A stretch of DNA of 64,000 nt from Mayamaea pseudoterrestris (taxonomy: Eukaryota > Bacillariophyta > Bacillariophyceae > Sellaphorales > Sellaphoraceae), in contig BROI01000006.1 in NCBI GenBank assembly GCA_027923505.1, positions 744,001 to 808,000 of the forward strand, in the 5' to 3' direction. Positions within the stretch are counted from its first letter, which is position 1, and every line of letters begins with the position of its first letter. This document shows positions 25,891 to 56,044 of the stretch, in pieces. The notes beneath the pieces were generated by a model, which worked only from the letters and a program-made list of their open reading frames with translations, had not been told where the DNA came from and made no database searches. The position numbers and the translations under genes were made by a program.

Positions 25891-26375
25891 TTTCGTTTTG
25901 CCATTGCCGTTTATACTTGTTACGATTGTCCCAGCCTAGCATACATTTTTTGCCGCGTTCAAACATGCTTCTGCTGCTGGCGAATGCACTGTCAATTTGT
26001 CGCGCAGCAAGTAATGGCTCTCTTAAAAACCATGACGACTTCAGCAAATCGCAAATCGCAAATCACAAATCACAAACCCATTAACACGTTCACATCCTCC
26101 GTGGAGCTACACTGCTGCATTTATGTAATTGTTTGCTGTTCTATCTGTATAATGCACATTATGTGAGATTAACAGAGCTTTATTAAAGGTAATTAGTGAG
26201 ACAGCGTACAACACCACAAGTCTTTTTGTGAAGGAACTGGGAAGAGGGTTCCTCCAAAATAGAAGAGAGTGTTTTGTCACAAAAGCATTCAGTAAAAAGT
26301 GATACTTTATCCCAACATGTAATAGGGTTGTAAATCATGTGATGATATCCTCTTGGTATTTCGTCGATTGGCGTC
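25891..26375. other. intergenic between tRNA-Ala and the giant gene 3' end
   Basis: This 485 bp gap contains a short direct repeat of AAATCGCAAATCGCAAATCACAAATCACAA type near 26044-26076. The rest is the downstream flank of the minus-strand giant gene. No gene is supported. Confidence 0.5.
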
Positions 26376-29300
26376 TTAAATGCCACCTTGAGTGCAGCAT
26401 GAGCATTGCATCTTGCCAAGGTCAACCTCAAATGTTGCGAGATTGCCTGCAAACATGAGATCGCACATGGCATCAACATCGCCGCTCATGTCATTGTTGA
26501 AAAGTGTAACTTGGCGCAGTTTGGATGTTTTACCTGCAAAATCAGTGGCAAATTCTGATGCTGGAAATGTGCCAGTCAGCTGATTGTTGTGTAAAAGCAG
26601 CTCTTCAATCTTGGGCGCATTAATGTCAGCCGGAACTGTGCCTGTCAGTCGATTGCCATCCAAATGTAATCGTTGCCAGTCAAGCTTGCCAAAGTCACTG
26701 GGTATGGATCCAGAGATATCATTGTTCTCCAAGAAAAGTGTGCGGAGATTGGGCTCAGTTAAAGGAACATTATTGGGAATTGTGCCTGTGAAAAAGTTGT
26801 ATGCCATATCGAGGTAGACCATATCTTCGAACTGCCACATGAAGTCAGGAATCGTGCCTTTAAACAGGTTAAAGGATAGCGAAAAAGTGTCAAGCTCCGA
26901 TAATTTCACAAAGTCTGATGGTATTGTACCTGACAATAAATTGTCGGAGAGTGTGATCTCCCAAAGTGTGGACAGCATTGAGATTTCAGGTGGGAGAGTG
27001 CCTCTCATCTGTTGACCATAGTTTCGTATTATCTGGTACTCTTCAAAGCGGCCACATGGGTCGACTCCAATCATAGTGTACCAATCGCATTCATGGAGGT
27101 CGGAGACCCATAAATCTCCCTCCAACCAATTGTCACCATTGAATTCGCAGTACATTAAGGCCATTGCAAAGCGCTGTCGAATTCGCTCGACCTGGAACTC
27201 CATTATATCTTTTCCGGTTCGAAGCCATTCCCTTGCCCAATTCTGACAGGTACCGGGAATATTAATCAGATCCCTTGTTTGTGGAGGCAAAGCAGGATCA
27301 ATAGCACCCATGATGTAACCACATTCAGCACTTTGTACACAAGGCAGAGAAGGTGGGATTGGGAGGTTTGGAAGAGTGTGAGGGGTGTTTGATATCGGAG
27401 CAGCCGGATTAAAGCCTAGCATCGGTGGTGTGCCCCCAGCCGGCGGAGGCACTGCAATGCTTGATGCGCCCATGTAAGTTACGGCAGCCACCAGCGGCAA
27501 GCTAAGCCAAATTGGCAAAACAATCCCTTTTGGAGCTTCCTTTTCTTCTTCTTCTGGCTCGTTGTATATGTCTTCCGGAATTGACATTGGCCTAGGCCCA
27601 GCTCCGGTGTCATCTTCTTCGTCGGGGTTTGATGCCCAAGGGGCGGATGGATTCTCCACGTCAGGACTACCCACCGGGTAGATTGGCTTGCTGCTTGTGA
27701 AATCAAAGTCATCATAAGTTTCTGGGGATGTCTTTGGCATTGATCCTGCCGGAGGCTTGGGCTTAGTGCTTGTGAATTCAAAGTCATTGTAAGTCTCAGG
27801 CCGATCTTGATGTTCAGCCCTTGGTTCTGAACGGCCTGAGGCTGGTTTATTGCTACTGAACTCAAAAATATCATGCGTCTCCGGCGCCTTCTTGGGTGGT
27901 GGTGGGCCACGCCTCCAGTCCCATCCAGGATAGTCCTCATCGTCAACAACCGGTTTTGTATTAGGTTTTGGTTTTTCACTCACGTATTCAAAACTAGCGT
28001 GCTGCGGTCGACTGCGGTTCCAGTCCCATTCCGGAGACTTATCTGAGGTATTATCATCATGCCGAGGCCTTGGTGGCAGCCCTTCTTGGGGGCCCGTTGG
28101 ACCAAATCCTACCGGTGCAAGTTCTTCATCTGCAGGGACGGCTCGCTGCCTGTTCCAGTCCATGTCAGGTTCATCGTCAAAAACGTCATTCTTCCCAGGT
28201 CTTGAAGGGGTAGTACCCTGTGGGCCGAACGGCCCACTGAACGGAGAAGGCTCTCCAGTTCCAGGTGTTGGCCTATTACGATTCCAGTCCCATGCGGGCA
28301 ATCCATCCGTCTCGTCACCACCAGGGATATGCCTTGGAAGTCCTTCATTTGGGCTTAGTATACCTTGGGTGTCAGGTGGCACTTCGTTACCTGGAATGGG
28401 TCTATTGCGGTTCCAGTCCCAAGCAGGGGAGGCTTCAGGAACTTCAGTTGCCTTTTTTGGATGGTAGTTGGAAGCCTGAGGCACTAGCTGCCCCTGTGGT
28501 TTTGGGCCCAAAGCATCAGGAATATCTGCACCCTTGTTTCTAAGCCAGTCCAAAACTTTTTCAACGTCTTCGGGTCTAGAATCGTCTGGAGGAAAAGCGC
28601 TCGCTGATGAAGAACCAATAATTGGAGGTTTGATAGCGCCAGGAACCTCTTCTTCAACAGAAGGCGCATTAGGATTCCTCATCCATTCAAGAGCTTCTTC
28701 CATTGCCTTCTTCTTATTGGCTGGTGACAGTTGACGCGGCAGTGGAACACCAGCAATGTTCGCTAGAGCCTCCAGTGCCGGTTCGTCGATCTCGTCAGGA
28801 TTTGGTTCGTGGCCTCTTAACCAGTCAAGAGCATTATCAACTGCAGCCTTCTTCTCGTCAGCATTCAAACTACCTCTTGGGGGAGGCACCCCCGCCAAAT
28901 TCAACAAATTATTAAGTGTTGGCTCATCAATTTCATGCGCTGGACCTTTGCGCCTCAGCCAGTCCAAAGAGTCATCTAGCACATTTGTTTTGTCTTCTGG
29001 CGTCAGCTGGCGAGGCAGTGGAACGCCAGCAAGATTGGCAAATGCTTGAACTGTGTCTTCATCCACATCATCTACTTGTGGATTATTGTTTCGAAGCCAA
29101 TCCATTACTGCGTCAAGAGCTTCTTTTAGTTCTGTGGGTGGGATATGGCTGGGAAGAGGCAATCCCGGGACATTGACAATGTCTGCTGGTTGATGAATGT
29201 GACCACTCAAAATAGGTGTCTGAGATCGACGCGCCCAATCAAGTTCTGGTTCAGCCAGCGGTTTCTTGGGAAGATTAACGCCGGCAGTTTTAACGAGGGC

Positions 29301-32300
29301 TTGGAGCGAAGGCTCATCTAACTCTTCAATAGACTTTGGTGTTGGAGGATGCTTGCGTAGCCAGTCAACTGAATCGCTCAAAACTTGTTTCTTTTGGTCA
29401 TCGTCAATTGGGCATTTTGGTAATGAAATCCCTGCCATGTTTGCAAAGGCCCTTAATGAGGGTTCGTCGACATCATTGGGTATGGGATTGTTCTTTCGCA
29501 ACCAATTCACAGCATCATCCACAGCCTCCTTCCTACTGGTCGGTGTTCGTGGCAACGGAATACCAGCCAAATTAGCAAGTGACAGCAATGTAGTTTCATC
29601 AACATTATCCACCAAAGGGTGGTTGGTTCTTATCCAGTTCATTGCATCCTCCACTATCAGTGGTTTTTCACAGCTGAGAATTTCACGTGGTGTTGGAGTA
29701 CCAGCAAGATTCATGAGTGCACTCATTGTTGGTTCTGTTACTTCAACAGCACTGGGAGAAAGGCTCCGAATCCAGTTCACAGTATCTTCAAAGGGCTTCT
29801 GAAACTCTGGTGAAAGATGACTCCTTGGGAGCGGAACACCAGCAAGATTGGCCAGCGCCCGAAGAGTTGGCTCATCTACATCATCTAAATTGGGAGTATT
29901 GCCTCTAAGCCAGTTCATTGCGTCATCAACAGAAGATTGTTGCCCTGATGGGGGTGTTGTCCTGGGCGTTGGAATTCCGGCAAGGTTCATCAGTGCACTC
30001 ATTGTTGGTTCGGTTAATTCACCTGCATTGGGTGGATGGCTTCGAATCCAATCCACAGTGTCATCAAGGGGCTTCTGAAACTCTGGCAAAAGGCGACTCC
30101 TTGGAAGAGCGACACCAGCAATGTTGGCCAGTGCTCGAAGGGTTGGCTCATCCACATCACCTAATGTCGGAGTATTTTCCCTAATCCATTTCAATGCATC
30201 ATGTAGCAAAGGTCCTTGCTCTGATGAGGGAACTGTCCTAGGGGTTGGAATTCTGGCAAGATTAGCCAATGCATCCAGGGTTGGTTTGTCTATGTCATTT
30301 TCAGACGGAGGATTGTTTCTGAGCCATTCCAACGTGTCATTGAGAGGCTTCTGGTGCTCAAATGATAACTGTTTGCAAGGCAATGGAACACCAGCTAGAT
30401 TGGCAAGTGCGCGGAGGGTTGGCTCATCCACATTTTCTGGTTTGGGATTGTTTGACCTTATCCAGTTAATTGCTGTATCTAAAACATGAGACTTTTGTGT
30501 CAGAGATACATCACGTGGAGATGGAATTCCAGCTAAGTTAGCAAGAGCATCCAAAGTAGGCTTGTCTAACTCATTCACCAATGGAGGATGGCTGCGAAGC
30601 CAATCTACACAATCATTCAGAGCATTCTGCTGCTCATGAGAAAGTGGACAGTGGGGAATTGGGACACCCGCTAAATTAGCGAGCGCACGTAGAGTAGGCT
30701 CATCAATATCTTTTGGATCTGGCTTGTTGCTTCTAATCCAGTTCCAGGCTTTATCCACCACTTGGGGTTGCTCAGATGTGGGAATGGATCGAGGTGTAGG
30801 AACTCCTGCTAGGTTGGCTAATGCCTCTATGGTTGGCTCATCAAGCTCACCAGGCTTAAAGCTTTGATTTCGGAGCCATTCGGTGGTGTCACTCAAAATT
30901 CCAGCCTGGTCTGGAGTCAAAGTAGATCTTGGGAGTGGCACACCTGCTAGATTTGCAAGAGCTCGAAGTGTAGGCTGATCAATCTCCTGTGGTTTTGGAT
31001 TGTTGCTCCGCAGCCAATTAATGACTTTCTCTATAAGCATTGGCTGCTGGGACTTGGGAATTTCTCGTGGTGTTGGAATCCCAGCAAGATTTGCCAAAGC
31101 GTCCAATGTGGGTTCATCAATATCTGCTGCAGTAGGGGCACTACTGCGCAGCCACTCTGTTGTTTCATTCAAGATGTTGATCTGTTCTGGGGTCAGGGGA
31201 CTACGTGGAAGTGGAACACCTGCCAAGTTAGCAAGTGCTTGTAGTGTTGGCACATCAACCTTTGCTGGATCAGGTTGGTTATCCCGAAGCCATGTCATAG
31301 CTTGGTCCAATATACCAGGTTTTTGTGACATGGGAACAGTTTTTGGTATTGGAATTCCTGCTAAATTGGCCAATGCTTTCAAAGTAGGTTCATTAATCTG
31401 ATCTGCTGCAGGATTGTGGCCACGGAGCCATTCTATGGTAGTTTCAAGGACTGCAATTTGCTCCTCTGACATTGGACTGCATGGCAAGGGAACTCCTGCA
31501 AGATTGGCAAGTGCACGGAGGGTTGGCTCATCCACATTTTCTGGTTTGGGATTGTTTGACTGTATCCAGTTCAAAGCAGTATCTATAACTTGTGGCTTTT
31601 CAGATTTAGGTATATGGCGTTGTGATGGAATTCCAGCTAGGTTGGCTAGTGCATCAAGGGTTGGCTGGTCATGGAGTTTTTCCAAGGGCTTGTGATTGCG
31701 CAACCATTCTGTTGCACTGTTCAGCACAGCCTCCTGCGCTGGTGTAAGTGGCATCCGTGGAAGTGGTATGCCAGCCAAATTGGCAAGTGCTCGAAGGGTT
31801 GGCTCATCTACTTCCTTGGGGTCTGGGTGGTGGTTGCGTACCCAATTCATTGCATCATCAACAATCTTTCCAACCTTGGATTCTGGAATCTGCCGGGGTG
31901 TTGGCACTCCAGCAAGGTTTGCCAAAGCTTCCAAAGCAGGACCACCAAGTTCATGTGCCTTAGGTTTGTTATTTCGCAGCCACTCAGTAGTGGCATCCAA
32001 AGTGCTAATCTGCTCTGGTGTCAGTTGGCTTTGCGGTAGTGGTACTCCAGCAAGATTGGCCAAAGCACAAAGTGTTGGCTCATCCACATTTTCTGGTACA
32101 GGATTGTTGCTTCTCACCCAATTCATAGCATCATCTACGACCTTGGTCTTCTGTGACTTGTGAATTGCACGAGGTGTTGGAATTCCTGCTAGATTAGCCA
32201 GTGCTTCCACAGCAAGCTCATCAAGCTCATCTTCAGCAGGCTTGTGGCTACGTAGCCACTCAGTTGCTACAGCAAGCACATTCTCCTGCTCTGGTGAAAG

Positions 32301-47300: not shown

Positions 47301-50300
47301 TTTTAGTAACTTACTCTTTTCTTGCGGTTCTAATCGACCCTGAGAAACTGGTACACCAGCAAGTTTCGCTAACTTCCTAACAGAATGGTCATCAATACTA
47401 GCCACGGCTAATGAATCTCTGTTCCGAATCCAATCAAGTGCGTCAACGGCAAGCTTGCCTTTTATCGAGAGTGGCAATGACGCAACAGGAGCAGTGATCT
47501 GAGTAACGTTTAAAAGAGCATCCAGTGTAGAATCATCGCAAGCAGCTTTCGGTGGATCGTTGCTGCGCAGCCAATTCCATGCCATCTCTATAGCTCTCGT
47601 CTTGTCTTGAGGCTTAATCGTGCTGGCTAGCGAAACACCAGCTACGTTGCAGAGGTGACGAAGATTATCGTCGTCAATGTCTGTCGGAATGTCATCTGTG
47701 TTTCGAATCCAGGCTAAAGCATCATCCATTAGTTTTTGTTTAGACGAGTGTGGTGCAGTAAGAAGGTGCATTGAAAGTCCAACCAGATTGGCAAGAGCGT
47801 ATACCTCAGGCTCGCTCAAATCCGTAGGGAGAGCTTTGTTGTTTCGCAACCACACCAAAGACTCATTCAAAGATTGCCTCTTTTCCTCAACAGTTATCAC
47901 GCCCTTCATTGGAGTCAAGTTAGCAAGGTGCGATAACGCAATAATGTCATCATCGGTCATACAATTGGCTCGTAAGTCGTTGTTGTTTCGAATCCAATCC
48001 ATAGCTGCATCCACCAGGCTCTTCTTGGTCGCGGGTGTAAGACAGCCTTGGGGCATCGTAATTCCGGTAAGATTCGCGAGAGCCAGTATCATTGATTCAC
48101 TGAAACACGCCACAGTAGGTGTATTTTGACGCAACCACGACACGACGTCATCAATCCTCTTAAGTTTGGCGTCAGGCAGGAGATTTCCTATTGGAACTGG
48201 CATTCCCGCTAAGGTTGCGAGTGCTCGGATTGCGTCGTCGTCGACAACGGCCGTATCAGAAGGCTCGTAATTCCGAAGCCAACAAGTTGCGCTTTCAATA
48301 ACTCTCTTTTTAGCAGCAGACGGTAACGGGGGATAGAGAATCGGCGAAGAACCGAGATTTGCCAGAGCATGAAGAGTGGAATCCGATAGGTCTTCGTATG
48401 GTGGCAAGTTGTTCTTCCGCAACCAACTTACTGCTCGGTTCAAAACTTCTTTTTTCGATTCTGGCGTCAAAGCTCCAATTTGGCATGAGATACCTGCTAA
48501 GTTCACAATCTCCTGGGTACTCATATCATCAATGTCGTCAAAATTTGGATTGTTTCCATTACGAAGCCATTGAAGTGCTCCCAGGGCAATTTTCTCCGTT
48601 GCAGCCTTGGAAAGCATAGATTTTAAACTTCTGCTAGTTAAATTCGCTAAAACCCTCGCTGTTGCGTCGTCAAGGGTTGCTGATGATGGAACGTTCCTAC
48701 GCAGCCAGTTGATAGAGTCATCAATAATCTGCTGTTTTTGTCTCACTTCAAGTTCACCGCGAGGAACCGAAATTCCTGCAAGTGATGCCAAAGCACGCAT
48801 GCTCCGGTCATCCAAATCACGTGACTCTAGCGCTTTTTGATTGCGAATCCAACTGAGAACGTCCTGGATCACCTTGTTCTTGGCGGTTAAATTCATAAAT
48901 GTCGCATTTACTGGAATGCCTGAAATATTGGCAAGCGCTCCAATCTCTGTCGTGGTCAAATCTCCAGCTTTTAGGCAATTATTTCTCAGCCAGCTAACAG
49001 AAGCATTTAAAAGAGTTTGCTTCTCTGTTGGGCTGAGTCTCCGTTGTGGCATTGAGACCCCGGCAAGGTCAGCCAGTCCTTTCAAGCTCGGCTCATTAAC
49101 GTCTCCAATTTGTACATTATTGTTGCGAAGCCATTTAATCGCATCGTCGGCGATCTGTAGCTTGCTCGCGCGAGGAATATGGCCAACAGGCATTTTTATG
49201 CCTGCCAAATAAGCTAAGGCTTCGACTGCCGAATCGTCAAGATCCTCTCCGCGCAGTTTCGCGCTACGCAGCCAATCGAGACTTGCATTTACCACAGCCT
49301 GGGAACTCATTTCTGATGTTGGGTCAACCTGAGGTATTTCGGTTGCTGACAATGGCAGTCTGACGAGAGCCGCAATAATGTCATCGTTCAAATCGGCTTC
49401 AGCAGGAGTATTCTTTCGCAGCCAGGATACAACTTCTTCCATAACCTCCGCCTTCTCATCCAGAGAAAGTGTTCCCACGGGAGCCTGAACTCCTGTAAGT
49501 TCAACGAAAGCATCAAGCATTTCGTCGTCCACGACACCAAAAGACAGAGCATTTTTGTTCCTCAACCAAGACAACGTGTTTATCAGAACCGCTCGCCTGT
49601 CATCTGCAGAGATTCGGGGTTGTGGCATACCGATACCGGCAAATTTTGTCAATGACTCTAAAGTGTGAACGTCGATTTCTCCCAAGTTCTCAGTCTCGAT
49701 GGTATTCCTGCGAAGCCATGTAAGGGCCTCGTCAAATGCTGCTTGTTGCGCATCCTTTGATATAATGCCTTTAGGGAGCTCAATGCCTGCAAGATCGGCT
49801 AAAGCGTAAAACGTATCGTCATCGACATCACCGTACCTAGCTTTGTTATTGCGAAGCCAGTCCGCTGCAGACTGGAAAGCCTTTTCCTTGCCCCCTAAAG
49901 TAGCAGGGCCACGGATAGGGACGTCCATACCCGCCAGTTCTGCGAGCTTTAAAAGGACATCATCATTGACGTCATCGAAGTGTACCTCGTGCTGGCGCAA
50001 CCACAAGAGAGCATCGTCCATCACTTTCGCTTTGTCATCTTTCCGAATCTCACCTCGCACTACAGGTAGACCGGCAAGGTTCCTGAACGCATTTATAGTT
50101 TCATCGTCCAAATCATCCAAATTCGGCCTGTTTTCTCGCAGCCAATTCAGTGCACTCTCGACTTGACTATTAGCAAGCCCCATTTCAGAATTGTCGGCGA
50201 AATCTAGAACGTCGTCAACACTCCCACCACCACGAAGCTTCCTTAAAGCGATGGCCATGGCTTTGGCTCTTCGCTGCTCGTCTGTCAAAGGAGCTGACGC

Positions 50301-53300
50301 TACTCCGCTGTATCTACTCAAAGACGGATCATCATTGCTCACGCCTGCATAGTCTTTACTACGAAGTCTTTGAAGTGCCTTCTCCATGTCCCCGTCTAAC
50401 TTTGTGTGACCTTTAAAATCGGCAATGGGTGCTTGGAACGATACCATTGAGGCATCATCGACATGCGGGAGAGTGCCTGATGAGCGCATCCAAGCCAAAG
50501 CGTCTGACATTGCTTTGGCTCTCTTCTGTTCGCTACTAAGCTGGTCAGTTGGCGCGACGGACACGTCATCCACTCCAATTGCAGCGCCACCCTGAAGCCA
50601 CTTCACTGCATTTGCAACATCATTCGGCATCTTATCAAGCTTAGTCCCCCCAGCTGACTTGAATGAAGCAAGCGAAGCATCATCTGCAGATGATTTTATC
50701 CAATTTAGCGCATCAGCCATTGTTTTTGCGCGCTTCTGTTCCTCAGTCAGCGGCCGAACGGCCACGCTGCGATTGGAGGCTACCGAAGCATCATCGAGTT
50801 CCCCTGTCTTCTGAATGTCTGTTCCTCTGAGCCAATTCAGAGCTTGTGCCATGTCACTACGGGGAGTAGGATCATCGATCGAACGGAAAGAAAGAACTGA
50901 TGCATCGTCGACAGGTCCTGAATCGCCAGGAACATTATTTCCTTTCAACCAATTCAACGCATCTGACATATCACGAGATCGCCTCTGCTCATCATTGAGC
51001 TCAGGGTCGGCACGAGTTCCTCTGCTAGCGAATGAATCGTCGTCAAATCCAGGCATCTTGGGAACCCCCCCACGTAGCCAGTCCAAAGCATCTGCCGTAC
51101 CACCAGCACCTCGCCCAACTTTACTACCTCCAATGGACTTAAACGATGACGCAATGGAGATGTTGTCGGTATCGTTCGCATCAGCATTACCAGGGTTTCG
51201 CATCCACGCAAGAGCGTCAGCCATTTCCTTCGCCCTTAACTCTTCCGTAGACGGGCGCGCAAAGTCCCCGGCAATTTGCGATCGGCCGATTGACGAAAGG
51301 TCGTCCAGATCATCGAACCCTTTCAAGTTAGATTCGCGTCTTATCCAATCCAAACCCGAGACCATGTCAGCTTGGCGCAATGCACCTGGTGCTCCAAGAC
51401 CTAATGACTTGAAAGACGCGACGGATGGATCATCAAGCACCAGAGCAGCATCATTTGATCGCAACCAGCTTAAAGCGTTCTGCATTTCAGAAGCACGTAA
51501 TTCTTCTTCCGTCTTGGGAAGTATACCGGCTGCTTTAGCTCTTTTGAATGATGTTCCCACAGAGACGTCATCGAGTCCACGGTCAATATCTATCTCTCGG
51601 TGTCTGATGAAGTTCAACGCGTTTTCCATCGTGCCTATAATGTCGGCTTGATCCTTGTCCCTAGCACCTGGTACAATTGCCTCGATTTTCTGCATCGTCA
51701 TTACTGACATCTCGTCTAGATCAGGATCGTCATAGTTGAGATCGTTGTTACGGAGCCATCCAAGAGCATCCTCCATCTCCTTGACTCGCTTTTCCTCTTC
51801 AGTCAAGGTATCGTTAAATGTAAGTGCACGAGGAATCTGCAGGACCCCACGCTTTGAGTCAGCGACCGAATACTCGTCGATCGCTCGAGAATCCTTCCCT
51901 CGAAGCCAATTTAACGCATTAGTAATCTCATTGGCTTCGTCGATAGCCCCTTGAGGAACCTTTCCTTCATGTACGACATGGTCAAGCCATTTGAAAGCCG
52001 ACTTAAGCTTGCGATCGAGCGTGTCAGCTTCATCAGGAACGACAAGTCCGTTCCGAACAGCAAAAATGCGACCTACATCCGTCCACCACTTTAAAAGGGG
52101 CTTCAGCTCGGCAAATTTTGCATACAAATTATCCAGTTCAGAAGGAATGGGGTCCTCCTGCTTCGGCACTCTCGTCCACCAAGTAGCAGTCGCCTTCACC
52201 TTTTCGAGCTTGCCCTTGTCCGACTTCGGGAGCATAACTTTCGGCTGTGGTGGCCCCTGGAACCAGCTCATGATGTCTTTCATGTTCGCATCAAGTTCAG
52301 AGACCATTTCATCATTAGCATTCGGTCCACGCGTCCATGCCAACACATCAATCTCTTTTTCCGATCCTTTCCAGCTATTGACGATTTGGGCCAAATCCAA
52401 AAGAAGGTCAAGCTTGGATCTATCAACGCTGGAGAGCTTATCTGGATTGCATACGAACTGAGCATTTCGCCACCACTGCAATGCTTCAGACAACTCCTTA
52501 CACATGCTCTTCGTTTCTTTTGCTGACTGTGGGCGACGTCCGGGAGCCCAAAGAGAGAACAACCGATCAAGTAATTCGGCGCGAGCTGGATCATCAACAT
52601 CCAAACCCTTACTGCGATTACGACCCCATAACAGCAGCTCCTCCATGGTTATGACAGCTTCCTTCGCTTGCTTGGGGTCGAGTGCTCGGAAATTGCTCCA
52701 AAACTGAGCAAGATCTTTAGCTTTTTGCATCATTTCCTCTTCGGTAATCGCTTCTGCACTGACATCCTTGCCATTCTTGCTGAACCATCTTAATTGTGCT
52801 TCCAAGGCTCTAGCTTGTTCGAGTGACTCAGCTCGATTAATGTCCGCGAGACAGAAGTTTAAATTACCGGCAGCTCTCAGTTCAGTAGGATCCGCCATCC
52901 AGGCAAGCGCATCACTGACATTCTGAGCATAAAACATAAACTCTCCAGCTTGCTTCCGAGCTTTCTCGACGTCAAATGATCTCCCATCTCGTTCATACCA
53001 AGAGAACGCATCCAACATCTCATGTGCGTATATTTTTGCGTCACCCGCGCTGATATCACCGTACTGCTTCGTTCGGCGCCATTCCAATAGCGACTCCAGC
53101 ACATTCTTCATGGCCGTTTCCGTTTTAGGATCCTTGAGCTTAGGCATGTCGACCAACCTTACATGACTCCCCATTCTGTCCCAATCGCTGAGCGCATCAG
53201 CCACAGTTTTAATCGAGGTTGGGTTCCGCATGAATGCCATCAGATCGTTATCACTTGCCGTGCAAAACTGCGAAAAAATATGCTTGAGTTTATCCACTAC

Positions 53301-55085
53301 AAACTCATCCATGGGTTGAAACTTGTCAAAATCTTTAATCTCTTCCCACCGAATAAGTGCCTGTCCAAGTTCCTTTGCGTCAACAATGGCGGACGCCTTA
53401 CTCAATTTCGGTGCTGAGCCTTTACACTGCCACTCAATCATTGCTTGCTTAAGTTTCATGAACTTTGCCTGATCTTCGTCGTTAAAGTCATCCGGATTAA
53501 ATTTTCCAGCGCCATTCTTCAGCCACCATCTGAGGCACTTTTCCAGCTCTTTCCCGGCAACATCATCGGTCCCGAAATTCCAATCAGTCATAACGGCCTG
53601 GAGCTTTTTAAATCGATCCAAATCATCAGGACTGGCTAACGTTTCATCGAAATTCGCACCATGCTGACGCCACCAACCGATCAACCCTTCCAATTCCTCC
53701 ATGACCGCTTCAGACTGCTGCGGTGTCATGATTCCTTTGACGTTGATAGCGAGGGTTTTTATGCGACGAAACGCTTCGAGCTCGAACATGTCCATGTCAG
53801 CTTCATCGGTCGTCAAATTACGCTGCCAAAAGCTGCAGGCGTCACGAATCTCCTTCATAACAAATTCAAATCCGTCAGAAGTTACTGGTATGTCCTTGAT
53901 CTGCCAGTCTACAAACATTTGCTTGGCCTTGCGAAACATCGTAGCATCTTCAAAACTTGCACTATCCGCATCGAACATCATTCCCACGCAGTTCTTTTTC
54001 CACCAATCCGCAATCTCATATAGTTCGAGTCTCAAGCTTTCCGGATTTGTGTTATTCAAGCTAATCAAGACTAGTCCATGCTTGAATTTCTTAAACGGGT
54101 CGGTACTAATGATATTGTCCGCCGATATGCTGCGGTCACCATCCTTCGAAGTGTATCGAAAGGCGTTGAGCTGCGCCTCCAATTCCTTAGCAAGTTTCTC
54201 AGCTTTCTTGGGATCCTGGCCCGGTTCAAATTTGTATTGGATCGGCAGACTATGGGTCTGAAACCAATCAAACAAATTATTCACCTTCTTCATCTTGAGG
54301 ATGTTCGTTTCAAGAGCTGCAACATCTTCCTCGTAGGTGTGGTAATTTTCCTTCCACCACTTCAGGCTCGCGAGCATCATTTCCACAAGTTTGTCAGTGC
54401 TGTCAGACTTGTGCTTGCACCTCTGGAAAAACTTGCGAAGCTTGCCAGCTCGCTTCGCGTCGTCGTTGGATTTGTAAATGCGTCCAGAATCTGACCACCA
54501 CTGGACAATCTTCTGGAGTTCTTCGGCCGACTGCTCGAGCCCAGCCGCGTTCGAATGATTGTACTTTTGCAAAGTCGACGTCCACCAGTAAAGTGCCGAT
54601 TGCATCTTTCTAGTCCGTTCCATGGCTTCCTTGCTGCGCTCCGTCAAACCCGAGCCAAGCGCTTCGTATGTCAACTTGCGGTCTCTCAACGTACTCATAA
54701 TGTCAAACTTTTTAATGTCGACTGGCAAGAACTCGTCGTCATTGTTTAAGTCAATCAGATCCGGATCGTCGTCGTCCTCAAACTTGACAGTGGCGACAGC
54801 ACTCATATCATCCGCCTGGACCGTCGCTACACCCTTCTTGATCCAATCCAATGCCGACGCCATTTGACCCGCCAGTTGCAAAGCATCATCGGCGTTTTGC
54901 TCCGCCGCGAGTACTGACTTCATCGTCTTGGCCTTTGGAGGCCCAGTCGGTTTGCCTAGCGGTTTGGGCTTGGGTTTCTTCTTCTTCTTTCCGGCAACGG
55001 AGGCTCGACTCTCCAAGTCGTCGTGCGCCATCAAAGACTCCTCCTCATTGCTAGTCGTACCTCCGCCAAATCCAAAGAATGACAT
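26376..55085 (-). CDS. giant 9,569-residue Trp-repeat membrane protein with C-terminal LRR domain
   Basis: One uninterrupted 28.7 kb frame from the ATG ending at 55085 to TAA at 26376; no intron is needed. The order of parts is: (1) a basic N-terminus with KKKKPKPKP, no signal peptide; (2) residues about 80-1100, degenerate Trp-rich repeats (KCLRWWLKNG, GLIGWWRQHG); (3) about 1100-1640, WLR repeats with DDASVASF motifs; (4) about 1645-8810, some 155 tandem 46-residue units of the type WLRNNxPxPxxVDEPTL then xALANLAGIPLP; (5) about 8880-9135, Pro-rich, five WDWNR-type and three F[ED]F motifs; (6) a membrane helix about 9188-9209 (IVLPIWLSLPLVAAVTYM); (7) a Cys-capped LRR domain about 9260-9569 with seven GT[IVLF]P repeats ending MQCSCC. 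Diatom LRR membrane proteins share the layout N-terminal region-TM-LRR, which suggests a cytosolic repeat array and an external LRR. The 46-residue unit is probably a helical hairpin (inference). Function unknown. Confidence 0.93.
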   Translation of the reverse strand: MSFFGFGGGTTSNEEESLMAHDDLESRASVAGKKKKKPKPKPLGKPTGPPKAKTMKSVLAAEQNADDALQLAGQMASALDWIKKGVATVQADDMSAVATVKFEDDDDPDLIDLNNDDEFLPVDIKKFDIMSTLRDRKLTYEALGSGLTERSKEAMERTRKMQSALYWWTSTLQKYNHSNAAGLEQSAEELQKIVQWWSDSGRIYKSNDDAKRAGKLRKFFQRCKHKSDSTDKLVEMMLASLKWWKENYHTYEEDVAALETNILKMKKVNNLFDWFQTHSLPIQYKFEPGQDPKKAEKLAKELEAQLNAFRYTSKDGDRSISADNIISTDPFKKFKHGLVLISLNNTNPESLRLELYEIADWWKKNCVGMMFDADSASFEDATMFRKAKQMFVDWQIKDIPVTSDGFEFVMKEIRDACSFWQRNLTTDEADMDMFELEAFRRIKTLAINVKGIMTPQQSEAVMEELEGLIGWWRQHGANFDETLASPDDLDRFKKLQAVMTDWNFGTDDVAGKELEKCLRWWLKNGAGKFNPDDFNDEDQAKFMKLKQAMIEWQCKGSAPKLSKASAIVDAKELGQALIRWEEIKDFDKFQPMDEFVVDKLKHIFSQFCTASDNDLMAFMRNPTSIKTVADALSDWDRMGSHVRLVDMPKLKDPKTETAMKNVLESLLEWRRTKQYGDISAGDAKIYAHEMLDAFSWYERDGRSFDVEKARKQAGEFMFYAQNVSDALAWMADPTELRAAGNLNFCLADINRAESLEQARALEAQLRWFSKNGKDVSAEAITEEEMMQKAKDLAQFWSNFRALDPKQAKEAVITMEELLLWGRNRSKGLDVDDPARAELLDRLFSLWAPGRRPQSAKETKSMCKELSEALQWWRNAQFVCNPDKLSSVDRSKLDLLLDLAQIVNSWKGSEKEIDVLAWTRGPNANDEMVSELDANMKDIMSWFQGPPQPKVMLPKSDKGKLEKVKATATWWTRVPKQEDPIPSELDNLYAKFAELKPLLKWWTDVGRIFAVRNGLVVPDEADTLDRKLKSAFKWLDHVVHEGKVPQGAIDEANEITNALNWLRGKDSRAIDEYSVADSKRGVLQIPRALTFNDTLTEEEKRVKEMEDALGWLRNNDLNYDDPDLDEMSVMTMQKIEAIVPGARDKDQADIIGTMENALNFIRHREIDIDRGLDDVSVGTSFKRAKAAGILPKTEEELRASEMQNALSWLRSNDAALVLDDPSVASFKSLGLGAPGALRQADMVSGLDWIRRESNLKGFDDLDDLSSIGRSQIAGDFARPSTEELRAKEMADALAWMRNPGNADANDTDNISIASSFKSIGGSKVGRGAGGTADALDWLRGGVPKMPGFDDDSFASRGTRADPELNDEQRRSRDMSDALNWLKGNNVPGDSGPVDDASVLSFRSIDDPTPRSDMAQALNWLRGTDIQKTGELDDASVASNRSVAVRPLTEEQKRAKTMADALNWIKSSADDASLASFKSAGGTKLDKMPNDVANAVKWLQGGAAIGVDDVSVAPTDQLSSEQKRAKAMSDALAWMRSSGTLPHVDDASMVSFQAPIADFKGHTKLDGDMEKALQRLRSKDYAGVSNDDPSLSRYSGVASAPLTDEQRRAKAMAIALRKLRGGGSVDDVLDFADNSEMGLANSQVESALNWLRENRPNLDDLDDETINAFRNLAGLPVVRGEIRKDDKAKVMDDALLWLRQHEVHFDDVNDDVLLKLAELAGMDVPIRGPATLGGKEKAFQSAADWLRNNKARYGDVDDDTFYALADLAGIELPKGIISKDAQQAAFDEALTWLRRNTIETENLGEIDVHTLESLTKFAGIGMPQPRISADDRRAVLINTLSWLRNKNALSFGVVDDEMLDAFVELTGVQAPVGTLSLDEKAEVMEEVVSWLRKNTPAEADLNDDIIAALVRLPLSATEIPQVDPTSEMSSQAVVNASLDWLRSAKLRGEDLDDSAVEALAYLAGIKMPVGHIPRASKLQIADDAIKWLRNNNVQIGDVNEPSLKGLADLAGVSMPQRRLSPTEKQTLLNASVSWLRNNCLKAGDLTTTEIGALANISGIPVNATFMNLTAKNKVIQDVLSWIRNQKALESRDLDDRSMRALASLAGISVPRGELEVRQKQQIIDDSINWLRRNVPSSATLDDATARVLANLTSRSLKSMLSKAATEKIALGALQWLRNGNNPNFDDIDDMSTQEIVNLAGISCQIGALTPESKKEVLNRAVSWLRKNNLPPYEDLSDSTLHALANLGSSPILYPPLPSAAKKRVIESATCWLRNYEPSDTAVVDDDAIRALATLAGMPVPIGNLLPDAKLKRIDDVVSWLRQNTPTVACFSESMILALANLTGITMPQGCLTPATKKSLVDAAMDWIRNNNDLRANCMTDDDIIALSHLANLTPMKGVITVEEKRQSLNESLVWLRNNKALPTDLSEPEVYALANLVGLSMHLLTAPHSSKQKLMDDALAWIRNTDDIPTDIDDDNLRHLCNVAGVSLASTIKPQDKTRAIEMAWNWLRSNDPPKAACDDSTLDALLNVTQITAPVASLPLSIKGKLAVDALDWIRNRDSLAVASIDDHSVRKLAKLAGVPVSQGRLEPQEKSKLLKDSIRWLRINNLPHEKLDDPTLMALVNVTGVAVPTFALPASVKLDLSERALLWIRNHGVPCTDKVEDDSVRDLASLAGVSVPAGCRLTPKDKSAALDEAINWLRKNDTPRDAVDDHTLSALLSVTSLPIPACKISLSTKKRIIKTSMDWLRNNSPRAVDTDEETIRQLSNICGIYVPTGKLGLKEQQERLDCAIVWLRNNFFSPENLDDPETLALANIAGIPMPGMPLCNAAKRQVISEAVNWLRNNTLPLDSVDDNMLTMLANLAGISVPSKLSPEKKSSVLDASYAWLRNNDPKTQDIDELMLESLANLANISLPGVELSLAAKEKLCEESWDWLRVKGTNPDDLDDASIIHLANLAGISMVSGKLGPAARRDILEKSMNWLRNNRLKAHDLEDPVIHALVNASVAYPRRGLLSRPALEATAEDALNWLRNNSPLPIEMDADILMQLSILAGLSLPNGPHTPGKQKELIEQFVLWTRQCKPCVADLADPILSALCNIAGVEVPLSKSALAKKQAADAALDWIRNNDVNMGDFDEPSLVCLANVAGISFPRRKMNQKKKKEILDQTIDWLRSSTPSTDILSDEGLKALANLGGIPVTGLLPSDTKRQVTDDAVLWLRNNTLVTDELAESDVRTLCNVAGMPLPLGKLTPKMKNQALDDAVNWIRKNGLVSSIIDDPDVYALAQIVGIVMPHSRFALTPTTKIAQEALNWLRINTPSHKNIDDASIRILASISGISIPYGKIDTAKKAKALDDVVSWLRCNGLSDENITDPVATALTNLAGFPLPPGSLSPTDRERVTLDILHWTRNADVKASDFDTPSLSALSTLANVSAPQGNMTTRQKMCIFDHVINWLRNSDLEEVDIDGPTLCALANVAQVDLPLPLSSLAKREAIDKAVSWLRQNTPNASTLDVGELTCLANLAGVPMAPSNLTLSEKTAIVEECILWLRRNDPAPAIISDALLQSLANVAGIPMPSGYSPPPNKTVEDAVEWIRNNSPPKIENFHDSDLRVLANVASVHAPRGTIPPHIKKTILDKCWDWLRDNDIAARSLSDPCIVEALSKVTHGDTPRGFPKTAKNAADDALNWLRSNRPSADEVDEPALEVLATFAGLTLPSRQLLPDERKRLLGDTVDWLRNNDIYADQLSDPVIESLVNLAGMTLPLGTPVTASPTRTKEVAIDWLRNNMPRVEDVDEGTLRPLAKMAGIAVPCGLLPAEAKKDLLKETVKWVRQNNPLPRDLDAPEIIQSLVNISEASVPEGYDKAPKVLTEESLQWLRNNEPSATDIDDDTLIELCNLAGIPLPYTRVSAEKKQQVIEEAVEWLRHNDAPKDDLSDDAIQSIANIAGMPMPHNYVSTSNMAAQEALEWIRNNKPPEAGTLDATTLKTLSNVVHLKLPRGTLPAGKRNELLDQTWKWLRNNEPTPKNLKDPAFVSALVSVAGLSLPRGSAKSPKAIGEDAINWLRSNEPVLGNVEIPVLQKIANLAGVSMPTHSSAKEQEAVADMLNWLRSNGDSISYVDEAFVEALANVAGIPIPTGRIPKSERPQVLRDALEWLRNNSPDAAHVDASSLKTLAKLAGIELPKASLSLEQKRALDDALTWLRNNEPNFAEMDLPTIQSLATLAGMPMLKYSSPGGGGTTIIEDSLNWLRNNTIDHDDVDLDTLNSLANLAGIPLPQAELTDAQRKMFPDLLKWLRTNNVQPDDVDDETLGAFANLAGLFVPRVIARDECGPLVLDDCLDWIRSHDPNFDALDFPTFHSLLNLAGTPLPHQKLTPEQEKAFDDTLEWYRNSSITTSDVDEPSLVALAGLAGLALPEDRAARDVNKPIILDQALTWLRNNDPSPADLNEATLRTLANLAGVPVPQRKLSPDERTALEDAVEWIRSSSIKPINVSDDALHALANVAGLSLPMKRLPPEVRSKVLESALEWLRNNEPQTNQMNLPVLRAIANCAGQTIPNGNLNFEQKLSLEETLEWLRNHDPHPDKVNNEALKALASLSGLALPCGDIMPHQKSGVLEASIKWLRNNDPDPIAVDAPMLQSLATLAGLPIKKGRLAKDQMDALDKSVDWLRNNKPHPADLDQPALLALANVAGIPLPVAKTLPKDKTTIVENALNWLRNNSPNPELVDTPTLQALSNLAGVPVPKESLTSAQRESLDKALNWIRNTNIKPEDVGEPVLRALASIAGVPVPARRISAKDKPQILDESLTWLRKNNLKPQDVDETTLLSLATLAGIPMPSHQLSSEQSEALQDIVDWVRNSEIKPSDLDEAVLDALATLAGIPMPREHITPKSKPKILEHALSWLRNNDPNPATVDETTLQSLATLAGVPIPQKPLTALQKGALDDTLEWIRTHEIAPGDVTEPMLEALATLSGIPVPKEQVRLKEKSKFLESAFDWLRSNSPDPDDVDEAVLLPLATLAGIAVPHKKLSPCEKKAFEDSLTWLRTNTILSESVDPGSLDTLASLAGIPIPTCSAYPDKASTVNQSLEWLRNNDPHPRIVDLPLIAPLANLAGIPFPENKDRSASVDISPKTQTMDQHQGPQSKIVDFQDVKRLASLAGLPMPTSNFTPAKQEVLSKSLNWIRNNDLVPDDIDEATMQAMANLAGIPLPIKVQSKDKQKIIANAVEWLRHNDPNPIALDAPTLQSLATLAGLPIPKGSLAKDQMDALDKSVDWLRNNKPHPADLDQPALLALANVAGIPLPVAKTLPKDKTTIVENALNWLRNNSPNPELVDTPTLQALSNLAGVPVPKESLTSAQRESLDKAVNWIRNTNIKPEDVGKPVLRALASIVGVPVPARKILAKDKPQILDESLTWLRKNNLKPHDVDETTLLSLATLAGIPMPSHQLSLEQSEALQDMVDWVRNNEIKPSDLDEAELDALATLAGIPMPREHITPKSKPKILGHALSWLRNNDPNPATVDETTLQSLATLAGVPIPQKPLTALQKGALDDTLEWIRTHEIAPGDVTEPMLEALATLSGIPVPKERIKPKDKPKVLGNALDWLRSNVPMPGVIDEPSLQALANLAGVPMPCTSIAPDQQMALNDIVKWIRHNEPRGADMDKPTLQALANLAGIPLPQDQLSPIDQKELVEDCLTWLRSNDPKLEAIEEFTLHSLANLAGLPCPRRLISPKQEEALNDTVEWLRNTGVHPDELDKPTMQALANLSGIPMTHSINAMDNDIVAENAINWLRNQDPELEGIDEGSLHPLAELAGLPMPVNFTSAKQEVLSKSLNWIRNNNLVPDDIDEATMQAMANLAGIPLPIKVQSKDKPKIIANAVEWLRNNDPNPIAVDAPTLQSLATLAGLPLPKGRLAKDQMDALDKSVDWLRNNRPHPADLDQPALLALANVAGIPLPVAKTLPKDKTTIVENALKWLRNNSPNPELVDTPTLQALSNLAGVPVPKESLTSAQRESLDKALNWIRNTNIKPEDVGEPVLRALASIAGVPVPARRIPAKDKPQILDESLTWLRKNNLKPQDVDETTLLSLATLAGIPMPSHQLSSEQSEALQDMVDWVRNSEIKPSDLDEGVVDALATLAGIPMPREHITPKSKPKILEHALSWLRNNDPNPASVDETTLHSLATLAGVPIPRKPLTALQKGALDDTLEWIRTHEIAPGDVTEPMLEALATLSGIPVPKERIKPKDKPKVLGNALDWLRSNDPMPGVIDEPSLQALANLAGVPMPCTSIAPDQHMALNDIVKWIRHNEPRGADMDKPTLQALANLAGIPLPQDQLSPIDQKELVEDCLTWLRSNDPSPTNVDIPSLQALANLAGVPLPRRQLDVNQQAALDDCFNWLRNNTPSQDAVDDLALNALRNITGIPLSHKTTTNSEVVLKNAVNWIRQNNLELDDVNEPILNALCNLAGIPMPKMQTLPEKEKAFYNSLQWIRNNNPDPGRVNAPTLEALASLAGIPLPRQPLTQKEKTKAISDCVDWIRSKKIDYDGIDEPTTKTLAKLASQPLADHSPEVKETALNKALDWLRNSEVIPTCDEPTGFALCNLAGVPMPSQLLPMDQKIGALQQATNWLRTHQPTGNNLDQSTAEALANLAGIPTPRYFHENEKPKMLDNAINWIRHNDPKPEKLDDPTLKILANLAGLPVPRKVMSQEELDVLDEAITWLRNHQPTEQYLEEPVLEALTNLAGIPSARHVPKSEQPQLLEDFMNWIRQNKPDPDDVDEPALRAMANLAGIPLPRSRLSPEQENVLAVATEWLRSHKPAEDELDELAVEALANLAGIPTPRAIHKSQKTKVVDDAMNWVRSNNPVPENVDEPTLCALANLAGVPLPQSQLTPEQISTLDATTEWLRNNKPKAHELGDPALEALANLAGVPTPRQIPGSKVGKIVDDAMNWVRNHHPDPKEVDEPTLRALANLAGIPLPRMPLTPAQEAVLNSATEWLRNHKPLEKLHDQPTLDALANLAGIPSQRHIPKSEKPQVIDAALNWIRSNNPKPENVDEPTLRALANLAGVPLPCSPMSEEQIAVLETTIEWLRGHNPAADQINEPTLKALANLAGIPIPKTVPMSQKPGILDQAMTWLRDNQPDPAKVDVPTLQALANLAGVPLPRSPLTPEQINILNETTEWLRSSAPTAADIDEPTLDALANLAGIPTPREIPKSQQPMLIEKVINWLRSNNPKPQEIDQPTLRALANLAGVPLPRSTLTPDQAGILSDTTEWLRNQSFKPGELDEPTIEALANLAGVPTPRSIPTSEQPQVVDKAWNWIRSNKPDPKDIDEPTLRALANLAGVPIPHCPLSHEQQNALNDCVDWLRSHPPLVNELDKPTLDAIANLAGVPSPRHIPLPDWPNVVDSAVNWLRQNEPNPNLADGPNLQALANLAGVPLPRQMLTHEQQLVLDDAIEWLRTHVPKDNEIDEPTAEALANLAELPTRRHIPTSQKAKILDEAMNWIRHNDPKPKNIDTPSLQALANLAGIPVPRKVMSQEELDVLDEAITWLRNHQPTEQYLDEPVLEALTNLAGIPSARHVPKSEQPQLLEDFMNWIRQNKPDPDDVDEPALRAMANLAGIPLPRSRLSPEQENVLAVATEWLRSHKPAEDELDELAVEALANLAGIPTPRAIHKSQKTKVVDDAMNWVRSNNPVPENVDEPTLCALANLAGVPLPQSQLTPEQISTLDATTEWLRNNKPKAHELGGPALEALANLAGVPTPRQIPESKVGKIVDDAMNWVRNHHPDPKEVDEPTLRALANLAGIPLPRMPLTPAQEAVLNSATEWLRNHKPLEKLHDQPTLDALANLAGIPSQRHIPKSEKPQVIDTALNWIQSNNPKPENVDEPTLRALANLAGVPLPCSPMSEEQIAVLETTIEWLRGHNPAADQINEPTLKALANLAGIPIPKTVPMSQKPGILDQAMTWLRDNQPDPAKVDVPTLQALANLAGVPLPRSPLTPEQINILNETTEWLRSSAPTAADIDEPTLDALANLAGIPTPREIPKSQQPMLIEKVINWLRSNNPKPQEIDQPTLRALANLAGVPLPRSTLTPDQAGILSDTTEWLRNQSFKPGELDEPTIEALANLAGVPTPRSIPTSEQPQVVDKAWNWIRSNKPDPKDIDEPTLRALANLAGVPIPHCPLSHEQQNALNDCVDWLRSHPPLVNELDKPTLDALANLAGIPSPRDVSLTQKSHVLDTAINWIRSNNPKPENVDEPTLRALANLAGVPLPCKQLSFEHQKPLNDTLEWLRNNPPSENDIDKPTLDALANLARIPTPRTVPSSEQGPLLHDALKWIRENTPTLGDVDEPTLRALANIAGVALPRSRLLPEFQKPLDDTVDWIRSHPPNAGELTEPTMSALMNLAGIPTPRTTPPSGQQSSVDDAMNWLRGNTPNLDDVDEPTLRALANLAGVPLPRSHLSPEFQKPFEDTVNWIRSLSPSAVEVTEPTMSALMNLAGTPTPREILSCEKPLIVEDAMNWIRTNHPLVDNVDETTLLSLANLAGIPLPRTPTSRKEAVDDAVNWLRKNNPIPNDVDEPSLRAFANMAGISLPKCPIDDDQKKQVLSDSVDWLRKHPPTPKSIEELDEPSLQALVKTAGVNLPKKPLAEPELDWARRSQTPILSGHIHQPADIVNVPGLPLPSHIPPTELKEALDAVMDWLRNNNPQVDDVDEDTVQAFANLAGVPLPRQLTPEDKTNVLDDSLDWLRRKGPAHEIDEPTLNNLLNLAGVPPPRGSLNADEKKAAVDNALDWLRGHEPNPDEIDEPALEALANIAGVPLPRQLSPANKKKAMEEALEWMRNPNAPSVEEEVPGAIKPPIIGSSSASAFPPDDSRPEDVEKVLDWLRNKGADIPDALGPKPQGQLVPQASNYHPKKATEVPEASPAWDWNRNRPIPGNEVPPDTQGILSPNEGLPRHIPGGDETDGLPAWDWNRNRPTPGTGEPSPFSGPFGPQGTTPSRPGKNDVFDDEPDMDWNRQRAVPADEELAPVGFGPTGPQEGLPPRPRHDDNTSDKSPEWDWNRSRPQHASFEYVSEKPKPNTKPVVDDEDYPGWDWRRGPPPPKKAPETHDIFEFSSNKPASGRSEPRAEHQDRPETYNDFEFTSTKPKPPAGSMPKTSPETYDDFDFTSSKPIYPVGSPDVENPSAPWASNPDEEDDTGAGPRPMSIPEDIYNEPEEEEKEAPKGIVLPIWLSLPLVAAVTYMGASSIAVPPPAGGTPPMLGFNPAAPISNTPHTLPNLPIPPSLPCVQSAECGYIMGAIDPALPPQTRDLINIPGTCQNWAREWLRTGKDIMEFQVERIRQRFAMALMYCEFNGDNWLEGDLWVSDLHECDWYTMIGVDPCGRFEEYQIIRNYGQQMRGTLPPEISMLSTLWEITLSDNLLSGTIPSDFVKLSELDTFSLSFNLFKGTIPDFMWQFEDMVYLDMAYNFFTGTIPNNVPLTEPNLRTLFLENNDISGSIPSDFGKLDWQRLHLDGNRLTGTVPADINAPKIEELLLHNNQLTGTFPASEFATDFAGKTSKLRQVTLFNNDMSGDVDAMCDLMFAGNLATFEVDLGKMQCSCCTQGGI
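30545..35081 (-). repeat. recent in-frame duplication of about 2.05 kb within the array (offset 2,484 bp)
   Basis: 30545-32597 and 33029-35081 are nearly identical; by eye about ten single-base differences. The offset of 2,484 bp is exactly 18 monomers or 9 A/B dimers. About 430 bp (three units) of unrelated array sequence lies between the two copies. Confidence 0.9.
36101..41264 (-). repeat. triplicated block within the array (offsets 1,944 and 1,806 bp)
   Basis: Copies at about 36101-37722, 38045-39669 and 40195-41264 are nearly identical. The offsets are 14 and 13 monomers plus 12 bp each, so reading frame is kept and the extra comes from slightly long units. A 3 bp indel near the low-coordinate to high-coordinate end (37705/39650 area) separates copies 1 and 2. 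Copy 3 is truncated to about 1.06 kb. Confidence 0.88.
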
Positions 55086-55276
55086 GGTCGTTTGCGGCTA
55101 CTGATGCTGGTCGAGTAAAACTAGTGTGCTGATTGCTGTTTTTTTTTTGTTTTTTTTGTAAATTGCTACCAAAAGGACCCTTTCGTAATCGACGAAAAAC
55201 TGACGAAACAGTCGGTGTGTACAGGCTTCCTTTTTGTGTACTCGAAGCCTTCCCAAACTGTGGCAGCAAGCAGTCG

Positions 55277-56044
55277 ATGAGACAACGTAAGGAAGGAGCG
55301 ATGCAACATCTCTCATCGAGACTTGCCACTTGGCCGCAAAAATCCTCTTTCACGTACCTTCTTGCAAACAATCAAAAGCCGTGCTACAGTAATGAAATAC
55401 ATCGTGTGAGTACCCTACAAAGTCTCTTATTCAAAGCGCCATATCACGACTGCGATGATGTAGCACATCACTTCTCCATGTCACTCTCGCGAGGGTTGGC
55501 GTTTCCACGCACCTTAACTCCGAACGGTATCGCTGCCGATGCTACGAATCACTATATGTACGATAAAAAGATGCTAAATTCTACACTCGAAAGCTCTTCC
55601 AAACTTCCAAACGATGCTACACCTCTACGTCTCTTTCTGATTTCTTCAGGTTGGCAGGCATCATCACGTCCCAAGATCAAGATTCCAGCCGGCGTTGAAG
55701 AAGCCATCAAAATGACTGTCTGTGTGACTCCGGCTAGTGACCGACGGAACGAAATGACCGAACTTATTCGTCACGATGACGTTTTTTATGTGATCTTTCG
55801 AGCGAGGCGGCCACGCCGGATCTGCTCTCACAAATTCGTTTTTTGCCGTCAACATGGCTCAACATGGCCGTCAACATGGCTCAACATTGCCGTCAACATG
55901 GCTCAACATTGCCGTCAACATGGCTCAACATTGCCGTCAACCTGGCTCAACATCTCAACATGGCTCAACATCTCAACATGGCCATCAAGATGGCTCAACA
56001 TGGCCGTCAACATGACACCAACGGGTCGTCGCCATCAAGCGTGA
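55277..56044 (+). CDS. doubtful hypothetical protein, 255 codons
   Basis: An open frame from ATG 55277 with no recognisable domain. Upstream the frame is open from a TTG but that part is T-rich leader-like sequence. The last 60 codons are translated minisatellite (repeating QHGST, STWLN, AVNMAQH), which argues against a conserved protein. It lies in the promoter side of two divergent genes. It may be a chance frame or a young gene; transcript evidence would be needed. Confidence 0.22.
   Translation: MRQRKEGAMQHLSSRLATWPQKSSFTYLLANNQKPCYSNEIHRVSTLQSLLFKAPYHDCDDVAHHFSMSLSRGLAFPRTLTPNGIAADATNHYMYDKKMLNSTLESSSKLPNDATPLRLFLISSGWQASSRPKIKIPAGVEEAIKMTVCVTPASDRRNEMTELIRHDDVFYVIFRARRPRRICSHKFVFCRQHGSTWPSTWLNIAVNMAQHCRQHGSTLPSTWLNISTWLNISTWPSRWLNMAVNMTPTGRRHQA
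55845..56014. repeat. 22 bp minisatellite
   Basis: About seven to eight copies of GCCGTCAACATGGCTCAACA plus TT or TG, the first four nearly perfect. The later part is interrupted by shorter units made of TCTCAACATGGCTCAACA. It ends at GCCGTCAACATGAC. Confidence 0.9.

Follow-up and report, generated by a model that had tools for sequence, protein, structure and literature searches.

Diatoms possess transmembrane leucine-rich repeat (TM-LRR) proteins without a kinase domain, which passages of PMC6261938 propose as receptors or adhesion molecules; examples with one membrane helix, LRRs and no kinase are MRP2 and MRM2 of Pseudo-nitzschia multistriata. Among very large proteins, nesprin-1 reaches 1.01 MDa and has a helical-repeat rod and one C-terminal membrane helix (as described in parts of PMC10317153 and PMC3296292), and the 1.5-MDa bacterial adhesin MpAFP carries about 120 tandem repeats of Ig-like type (a portion of PMC4083281). 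In addition, in work on diatom gliding the connection between myosin and the adhesive strands is drawn as a transmembrane complex without a name (in passages of PMC13056149), and mechanical compliance has been inferred in gliding (in passages of PMC11420354).

The giant predicted protein of Mayamaea pseudoterrestris described here resembles each of these systems in part. Like the kinase-less diatom TM-LRR proteins, it combines one membrane helix with LRRs, and Pfam, run on its full length cut into five pieces, lists no kinase domain at E <= 1 (the repeat model PknG_TPR, which is not catalytic, is seen but stays under its cut-off). Like the giant nesprins (KASH), it has a mass of about 1 MDa, a very long rod of helical repeats at the N-terminus, a single membrane helix toward the C-terminus and a short domain on the far side, but it carries an LRR domain in place of the nesprin domains, and Pfam lists neither CH nor KASH domains nor spectrin repeats at E <= 1. 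The nesprin likeness is thus an analogy of layout and not kinship. With the giant adhesins it shares more than 100 tandem copies of a repeat, although MpAFP-type repeats are Ig-like and bacterial, whereas the units of this protein are predicted to be alpha-helical and are probably cytoplasmic. No description of the protein was found in the open-licence literature, and the main text of a survey of huge proteins (PMC11573180) does not mention diatoms.

The window, by which we mean the whole 64,000-nucleotide stretch of DNA that was analysed, carries this gene on its minus strand as a frame that runs from ATG to TAA through 9,569 codons with 0 internal stops, so the uninterrupted frame over the array claimed by the initial annotation holds across all 28.7 kb. 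An in-frame TAG lies just ahead of the first ATG (the open frame as a whole has 9573 codons), and hence the giant frame begins at this ATG. The other five frames over the same interval contain 148-853 stops each, with a longest open run of 278 codons. The predicted product has a mass of 1,052.7 kDa (1.05 MDa) and a pI of 4.9. The gene is single-copy, real and under protein-level selection, and it encodes a predicted single-pass membrane protein with an LRR end and about 150 two-helix units in a long N-terminal arm. Its features, in window coordinates, are:

26376-55085, minus strand: whole reading frame, 9,569 aa
55098-55100, minus strand: in-frame TAG, separated from the first ATG by four codons
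54906-55085, minus strand: residues 1-60, a basic, Lys/Pro-rich tail without a signal-peptide-like hydrophobic run by simple hydropathy
51906-54905, minus strand: residues 61-1060, degenerate Trp region with W/WW sites and helix-A-like flanks
50166-51905, minus strand: residues 1061-1640, ALxWLR-type motifs with DDxSxxS-type linkers between them
28641-50165, minus strand: residues 1641-8815, the repeat array, with 152 units above 25 bits and a 92-residue alternation
38044-39668, minus strand: residues 5140-5681, second-kind block, first copy
36100-37721, minus strand: residues 5789-6329, second-kind block, second copy
33025-35188, minus strand: residues 6633-7354, first-kind block, first copy (about 722 residues)
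30541-32704, minus strand: residues 7461-8182, first-kind block, second copy
27909-28424, minus strand: residues 8888-9059, WDWNR-type motifs in a Pro-rich stretch preceding the membrane helix
27471-27527, minus strand: residues 9187-9205, predicted membrane helix (the KD maximum, beside the paralogue membrane segments; a putative signal anchor)
27054-27227, minus strand: residues 9287-9344, pre-LRR cap with R9305, W9320, C9333, W9335 and C9344
26466-27038, minus strand: residues about 9350-9540, leucine-rich repeats (Pfam and alignment)

The predicted membrane helix is the sole hydropathy window above KD 1.7 (1.84; the next, at 1.66, lies in the array, where eight windows exceed 1.4), and the region that follows has significant stretches of the LRR models PF00560, PF13855 and PF12799, in keeping with the one membrane helix and LRR domain read there initially. 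By sequence, this C-terminus belongs to a large TM-LRR family of the same genome whose other matches are without the array: the last 408 residues match 113 genome stretches, their own included (135 candidates, 102 scored). The five cap residues listed above are common to 10 of 10 aligned rows, one from the giant and the others from nine loci (one gene accounts for both L007 and L010; the search pattern missed L005 and L013, which were left out). Judged by eye, 10 of 11 paralogue loci (9 of 10 genes) share the order of low-complexity stretch, basic residues, membrane segment, variable spacer, cap and LRRs, and in the remaining one, L006, no membrane segment is visible. Open frames at the eleven loci range from 406 to 1,823 codons, some of them cut before their start, as the frames of L003, L004, L005 and L012 extend past the fetched DNA; the longest frame listed has 2,692 codons. 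An LRR frame of this length, with several LRR stretches, lies at C24:122283-129254 of the same genome. The giant thus shares the Cys/Trp cap ahead of the LRRs with its paralogues, but differs from them in its 9,186-residue tail before the membrane helix, and no fetched paralogue matches the array.

This family likeness also bears on topology. The basic residues that precede the membrane segment in the paralogues, followed by cap and LRRs, point to an N-in/C-out orientation. The N-flank of the giant's own membrane helix is acidic with two Lys only, and hence its positive-inside signal is faint. Cys content, at 0.7% before the membrane helix and 2.7% after it, agrees with this orientation, but N-glycosylation sequons number 45 before and 0 after, which does not favour an LRR domain on the outside. 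Most likely, by homology with the paralogues, the array faces the cytoplasm and the LRR end lies outside; in that position the array would probably not serve as an adhesive rod outside the cell.

A unit HMM seeded on W-anchored units, which favours the detection of Trp-bearing units, gives 165 matches in the giant protein when weak ones are included and 152 above 25 bits, at residues 1642-8785 (6 of these 152 are matched over fewer than 40 residues). Degenerate units at residues 5123-5148, 8787-8810 and 8838-8853 bring the total to about 155, the number first estimated, while the extent of the array had to be corrected: it starts near residue 1642, and other degenerate Trp motifs fill residues 60-1640. 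Units are spaced by 46 residues (80 times), 47 (48 times), 48 (11 times), 45 (6 times), 50 (twice) or 49 (once), and steps of 44, 88 and 92 residues occur once each. Their consensus by column majority is PSEKKKVLDDALNWLRNNDPKPDDVDEPTLRALANLAGIPLPRGP; among units above 25 bits, the Trp is found in 152 of 152 and the Arg in 151 of 152, at a mean pairwise identity of 37%, and the array as a whole has a net charge of -262. Units grow more like the consensus along the array, with an identity to it of 0.40 over the first ten and of 0.57 toward the C-terminus, a trend which suggests that the C-terminal half is the younger one or has been homogenised more. Third-position GC declines from 0.56 over residues 1-800 to 0.37-0.38 over residues 6401-8800, where it is lower than in five neighbouring frames (0.49-0.56), and this drop tracks the younger repeats.

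The units also alternate. A unit is more like its second and fourth neighbours (i+2, i+4 and so on) than its first and third (i+1, i+3 and so on) in units 1-30, 31-65, 1-65, 66-88 and 106-152, and in each of these five partly overlapping segments the even-odd difference in identity exceeds all 1000 permutations of unit order. The segments skip units 89-105, a stretch with recent copies, and recent block copying contributes to the alternation in segments 66-88 and 106-152; units 1-65, about 30% alike, carry the argument. Hence, the annotated 46-residue unit stands as the prevailing spacing of 46-47 residues, but the natural period is two units, or 92 residues. Position 31 in helix B alternates between Arg/Gln and Glu/Asp in the youngest units; a neighbour-to-neighbour salt bridge at this position finds no support in the first 65 units (z -0.4), and the z of -4.1 in the youngest is confounded by recent copying.

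AlphaFold2 predicts from 2.5 units an alpha-helical, two-helix unit at a mean pLDDT of 92.7 (87.9-92.7 over five models), which bears out the two helices per unit proposed earlier. The pTM is only 0.59 and 0.62 in the predicted models, too low to fix how one unit stacks on the next, and the solenoid or spring-like rod first proposed would be one possible arrangement. The view that the repeat matches no named family has also stood up, since Pfam, NCBIfam, PDB-sequence and fold searches identify none and no single stretch of the array pieces scanned with Pfam reaches a family's cut-off. On pieces of the array, seven unrelated Pfam models (CTLH, DUF2388, ANM3 zinc finger, Slx4, NrS1-pol tail, SWIRM-assoc_2 and DUF5958) pass the whole-protein cut-off, but only through the sum of weak stretches, none of which reaches E <= 1 by itself. 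Every row of the NCBIfam scan lies under its cut-off, and two PDB-sequence matches, to a methyltransferase (E 0.005) and an oligosaccharyltransferase fusion (E 0.18), are taken as chance. For both models, Foldseek returns nothing at E <= 0.001 against the PDB, an absence from the fold list that does not exclude a family, and for the second model nothing at this threshold against viral models. To judge from these searches, the repeat unit is apparently undescribed.

Taken from helix B through to the helix A that follows, the unit has a helix-loop-helix form, which could relate it to the helix-extended loop-helix of LEM, SAP and Rho-N domains. T4 endonuclease VII heads the Foldseek PDB list at a non-significant E of 1.5, and the 50 viral Foldseek rows shown include two HeH/LEM entries (E 0.16 and 0.80), Rho-N (E 1.2) and T4 gp49' (E 1.3), all of which we take to be one fold class. 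A profile relationship to SAP was rejected: hhalign gives a probability of 0.6% against SAP stretches (29 from the same genome above cut-off, with duplicates and one stop-bearing stretch dropped), and 20 column-shuffled controls give 0.1-1.6%. In the Pfam scan of unit rows, the first 25 of 78 families likewise include no SAP, LEM or HeH model. The LEM/SAP-like fold suggested by the models may thus serve as a lead rather than a finding. Elsewhere in the genome, a 1,184-codon frame at C11:135818-138628 carries a dense array of six SAP-domain matches. Helix A, for its part, resembles a 15-residue stretch of the UBA-like model PF22562, which is the commonest Pfam match (49 of 111 unit rows at E <= 10, best 7.4e-06). 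A UBA-like identity was not accepted, as the one row displayed (member 1) covers 15 of 48 positions and scores 17.6 bits, where the cut-off is 27.

Ahead of the array, 38 Trp occur within residues 1-1060, at 29 sites that read W or WW, and the flanks of these Trp score a mean of -8.8 against helix A compared with -17.7 for random positions (SD 1.07). Six sites score above 4, where shuffling expects 0.5 and at most 3, while the top site, at 11.8, is within the best of 500 shuffles (16.0); the helix-A likeness of this region is therefore collective. A genome search with residues 61-1060 returns a single match, itself, and no Pfam family is above cut-off there. From residue 1056 to 1640, 14 ALxWLR-type motifs are counted, with 8 DDxSxxS-type linkers by pattern, and all 15 genome matches of this stretch, itself included, fall in the giant frame, where it matches the protein's own array. 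The roughly 40 degenerate Trp motifs ahead of the array may form a separate N-terminal binding region. Simple hydropathy detects no signal-peptide-like hydrophobic run (best 9-residue KD 0.88 among the first 60 starts). At the other end, between array and membrane helix, five WDWNR-type motifs are spaced 35-44 residues apart.

Selection on the protein is evident from the units themselves. In the first 65, the most diverged, both Trp and Arg are present in 65 of 65, and the invariant Arg is encoded by all six of its codons (19, 16, 12, 10, 4 and 4 times), which implies conservation beyond what DNA copying alone gives. One Leu column (58/65) likewise has six codons, and the Gly (51/64) and Pro (50/59) columns use all of theirs. 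Copying has nevertheless been recent in the later array: the first-kind block copies are 98.2% identical in nucleotides at an offset of 828 residues, or 18 units, the second-kind copies are 96.9% identical, and residues 4607-4981 have two further copies at 95.4-96.3%. In five of five comparisons between block copies, dN is lower than dS (ratios of about 0.25, 0.26, 0.31, 0.40 and 0.61, the last on only 90 codons). The units are under protein-level selection.

Within the 30.6-Mb genome (41 contigs), all 47 matches of a five-unit query fall in the giant frame (44 candidates). Beyond it, seven short proteins in a set of 5.8 billion carry the unit at E <= 0.001, among 8000 candidates scored. Each of the seven shows three or four unit matches, counting partial ones, and a metagenomic origin is suggested by their sources and by the shortness of their contigs. 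Among proteins of at least 5,263 residues, no giant relative was found through the N-terminal region (1156 candidates) or through residues 4600-9569 (476 scored). Exact short patterns of one five-unit query, suited to close relatives only, gave 11 stretches in viral contigs and 60 in bacterial and archaeal genomes, none of them confirmed.

Pfam-named neighbours in the window are unremarkable, namely BEACH (15714-24343, plus strand), PPR (56501-59608, plus strand), trigger factor, thioredoxin-like, PP2C, Maf1 and DUF6824 genes. The BEACH gene occupies two open frames, with PH-BEACH in the first and Beach in the second, and is thus probably spliced, beside the uninterrupted giant. Between the 3' ends of these two genes, a 136-base unit occurs in two copies at 25337-25606, close to a tRNA-Ala at 25817-25891 (plus strand). 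On the other side, the interval that separates the giant gene from the divergent PPR gene contains, at 55843-56014, a 22/44-base tandem repeat, GCCGTCAACATGGCTCAACATG; a TTG-started 303-aa frame (55133-56044, plus strand) that runs across it is probably not a gene. Elsewhere, the genome has 27 myosin-head stretches, among them near-equal frames at C22:227252-229489 and C22:244677-246944 that lie 17 kb apart and are probably a tandem pair, and 53 stretches that match the chlorophyll-binding family; one light-harvesting protein has fucoxanthin chlorophyll a/c proteins as its best PDB matches, at moderate similarity. The dynein MT domain has a single genome match and IFT57 none above cut-off, which suggests that there is no flagellate stage, as would be expected of a pennate diatom.

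How might such a protein work? We tentatively favour, at somewhat less than even confidence, a single-pass TM-LRR protein whose cytoplasmic array serves as a long, nesprin-like tether and scaffold. The LRR end would hold the surface or cell wall, the array of about 150 units, some 75 pairs, would span a long distance in the cytoplasm (roughly 150-380 nm when folded, if each unit contributes an estimated 1-2.5 nm), and the N-terminus and/or the repeated units would bind cytoskeletal or vesicle partners. The topology, span, binding partners and mechanical role are those that we infer; Pfam and NCBIfam recognise no actin-, microtubule- or motor-binding domain. A role in adhesion, gliding or mechanosensing, as first suggested, would likewise be an extrapolation from this layout.

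The near-invariance of Trp and Arg, the hairpins with high pLDDT but low pTM, the strong 92-residue pairing and the acidic charge of the array would also suit a multivalent cytoplasmic scaffold rather than a mechanical tether, in which hairpin pairs dock the same small partner in about 75 copies under the membrane near an LRR receptor. We consider this unlikely, if worth serious attention, since the W, R and LAG positions may be mere core residues and Pfam recognises no partner motif. The same predicted topology suits any secretory membrane, and a cytoskeleton associated with forming silica has been reported (in part of PMC3000822), so the anchor might instead lie in a membrane inside the cell, for example that of the silica deposition vesicle or of Golgi-derived vesicles, and send a cytoplasmic arm to actin or microtubules during wall formation; this strikes us as improbable. 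If the topology were reversed or the protein secreted, a lumenal or extracellular array could act as an adhesive or cell-wall strand, for which the sequons, all before the membrane helix, would speak, as would the strength of extruded diatom strands that passages of PMC11420354 credit to large modular proteins. The absence of a hydrophobic N-terminal run, the position of the paralogue cap and LRRs after a membrane segment preceded by basic residues, and the Cys-poor array argue against it and make it rather improbable.

It would be more improbable still that the frame is not one protein, being produced or faked by internal promoters, splicing or an assembly error, or that it is drifting junk. 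Near-identical recent blocks (95-98% in nucleotides) are sites where assemblies can gain or lose copies, and the number of units may differ between strains, but 28.7 kb without a stop, the six-codon conservation of Arg, dN below dS and the presence of the unit in seven other database proteins all count against this explanation. Finally, as a long shot on layout alone, the giant would fit the slot of the missing membrane-spanning link in diatom gliding or wall-cytoskeleton coupling, with LRRs outside and, inside, about 150 hairpins in a compliant chain that ends on the actomyosin track. Were this true, the chain would supply the mechanical slack that has been observed between myosin and cell speed.

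To return to the tether and scaffold that we favour, the locus places a repeat that is confidently predicted to be helical, and is apparently undescribed, in what we judge to be an unusually large uninterrupted frame on a surface-receptor-like family. Its unit, with two helices, a near-invariant W and R and a 92-residue pairing, is short enough to be expressed and solved directly. If the array is cytoplasmic, the protein would be a nesprin-scale tether reaching inward from the diatom cell surface. It would then also be a concrete candidate for whatever joins the cytoskeleton to the wall or adhesive.
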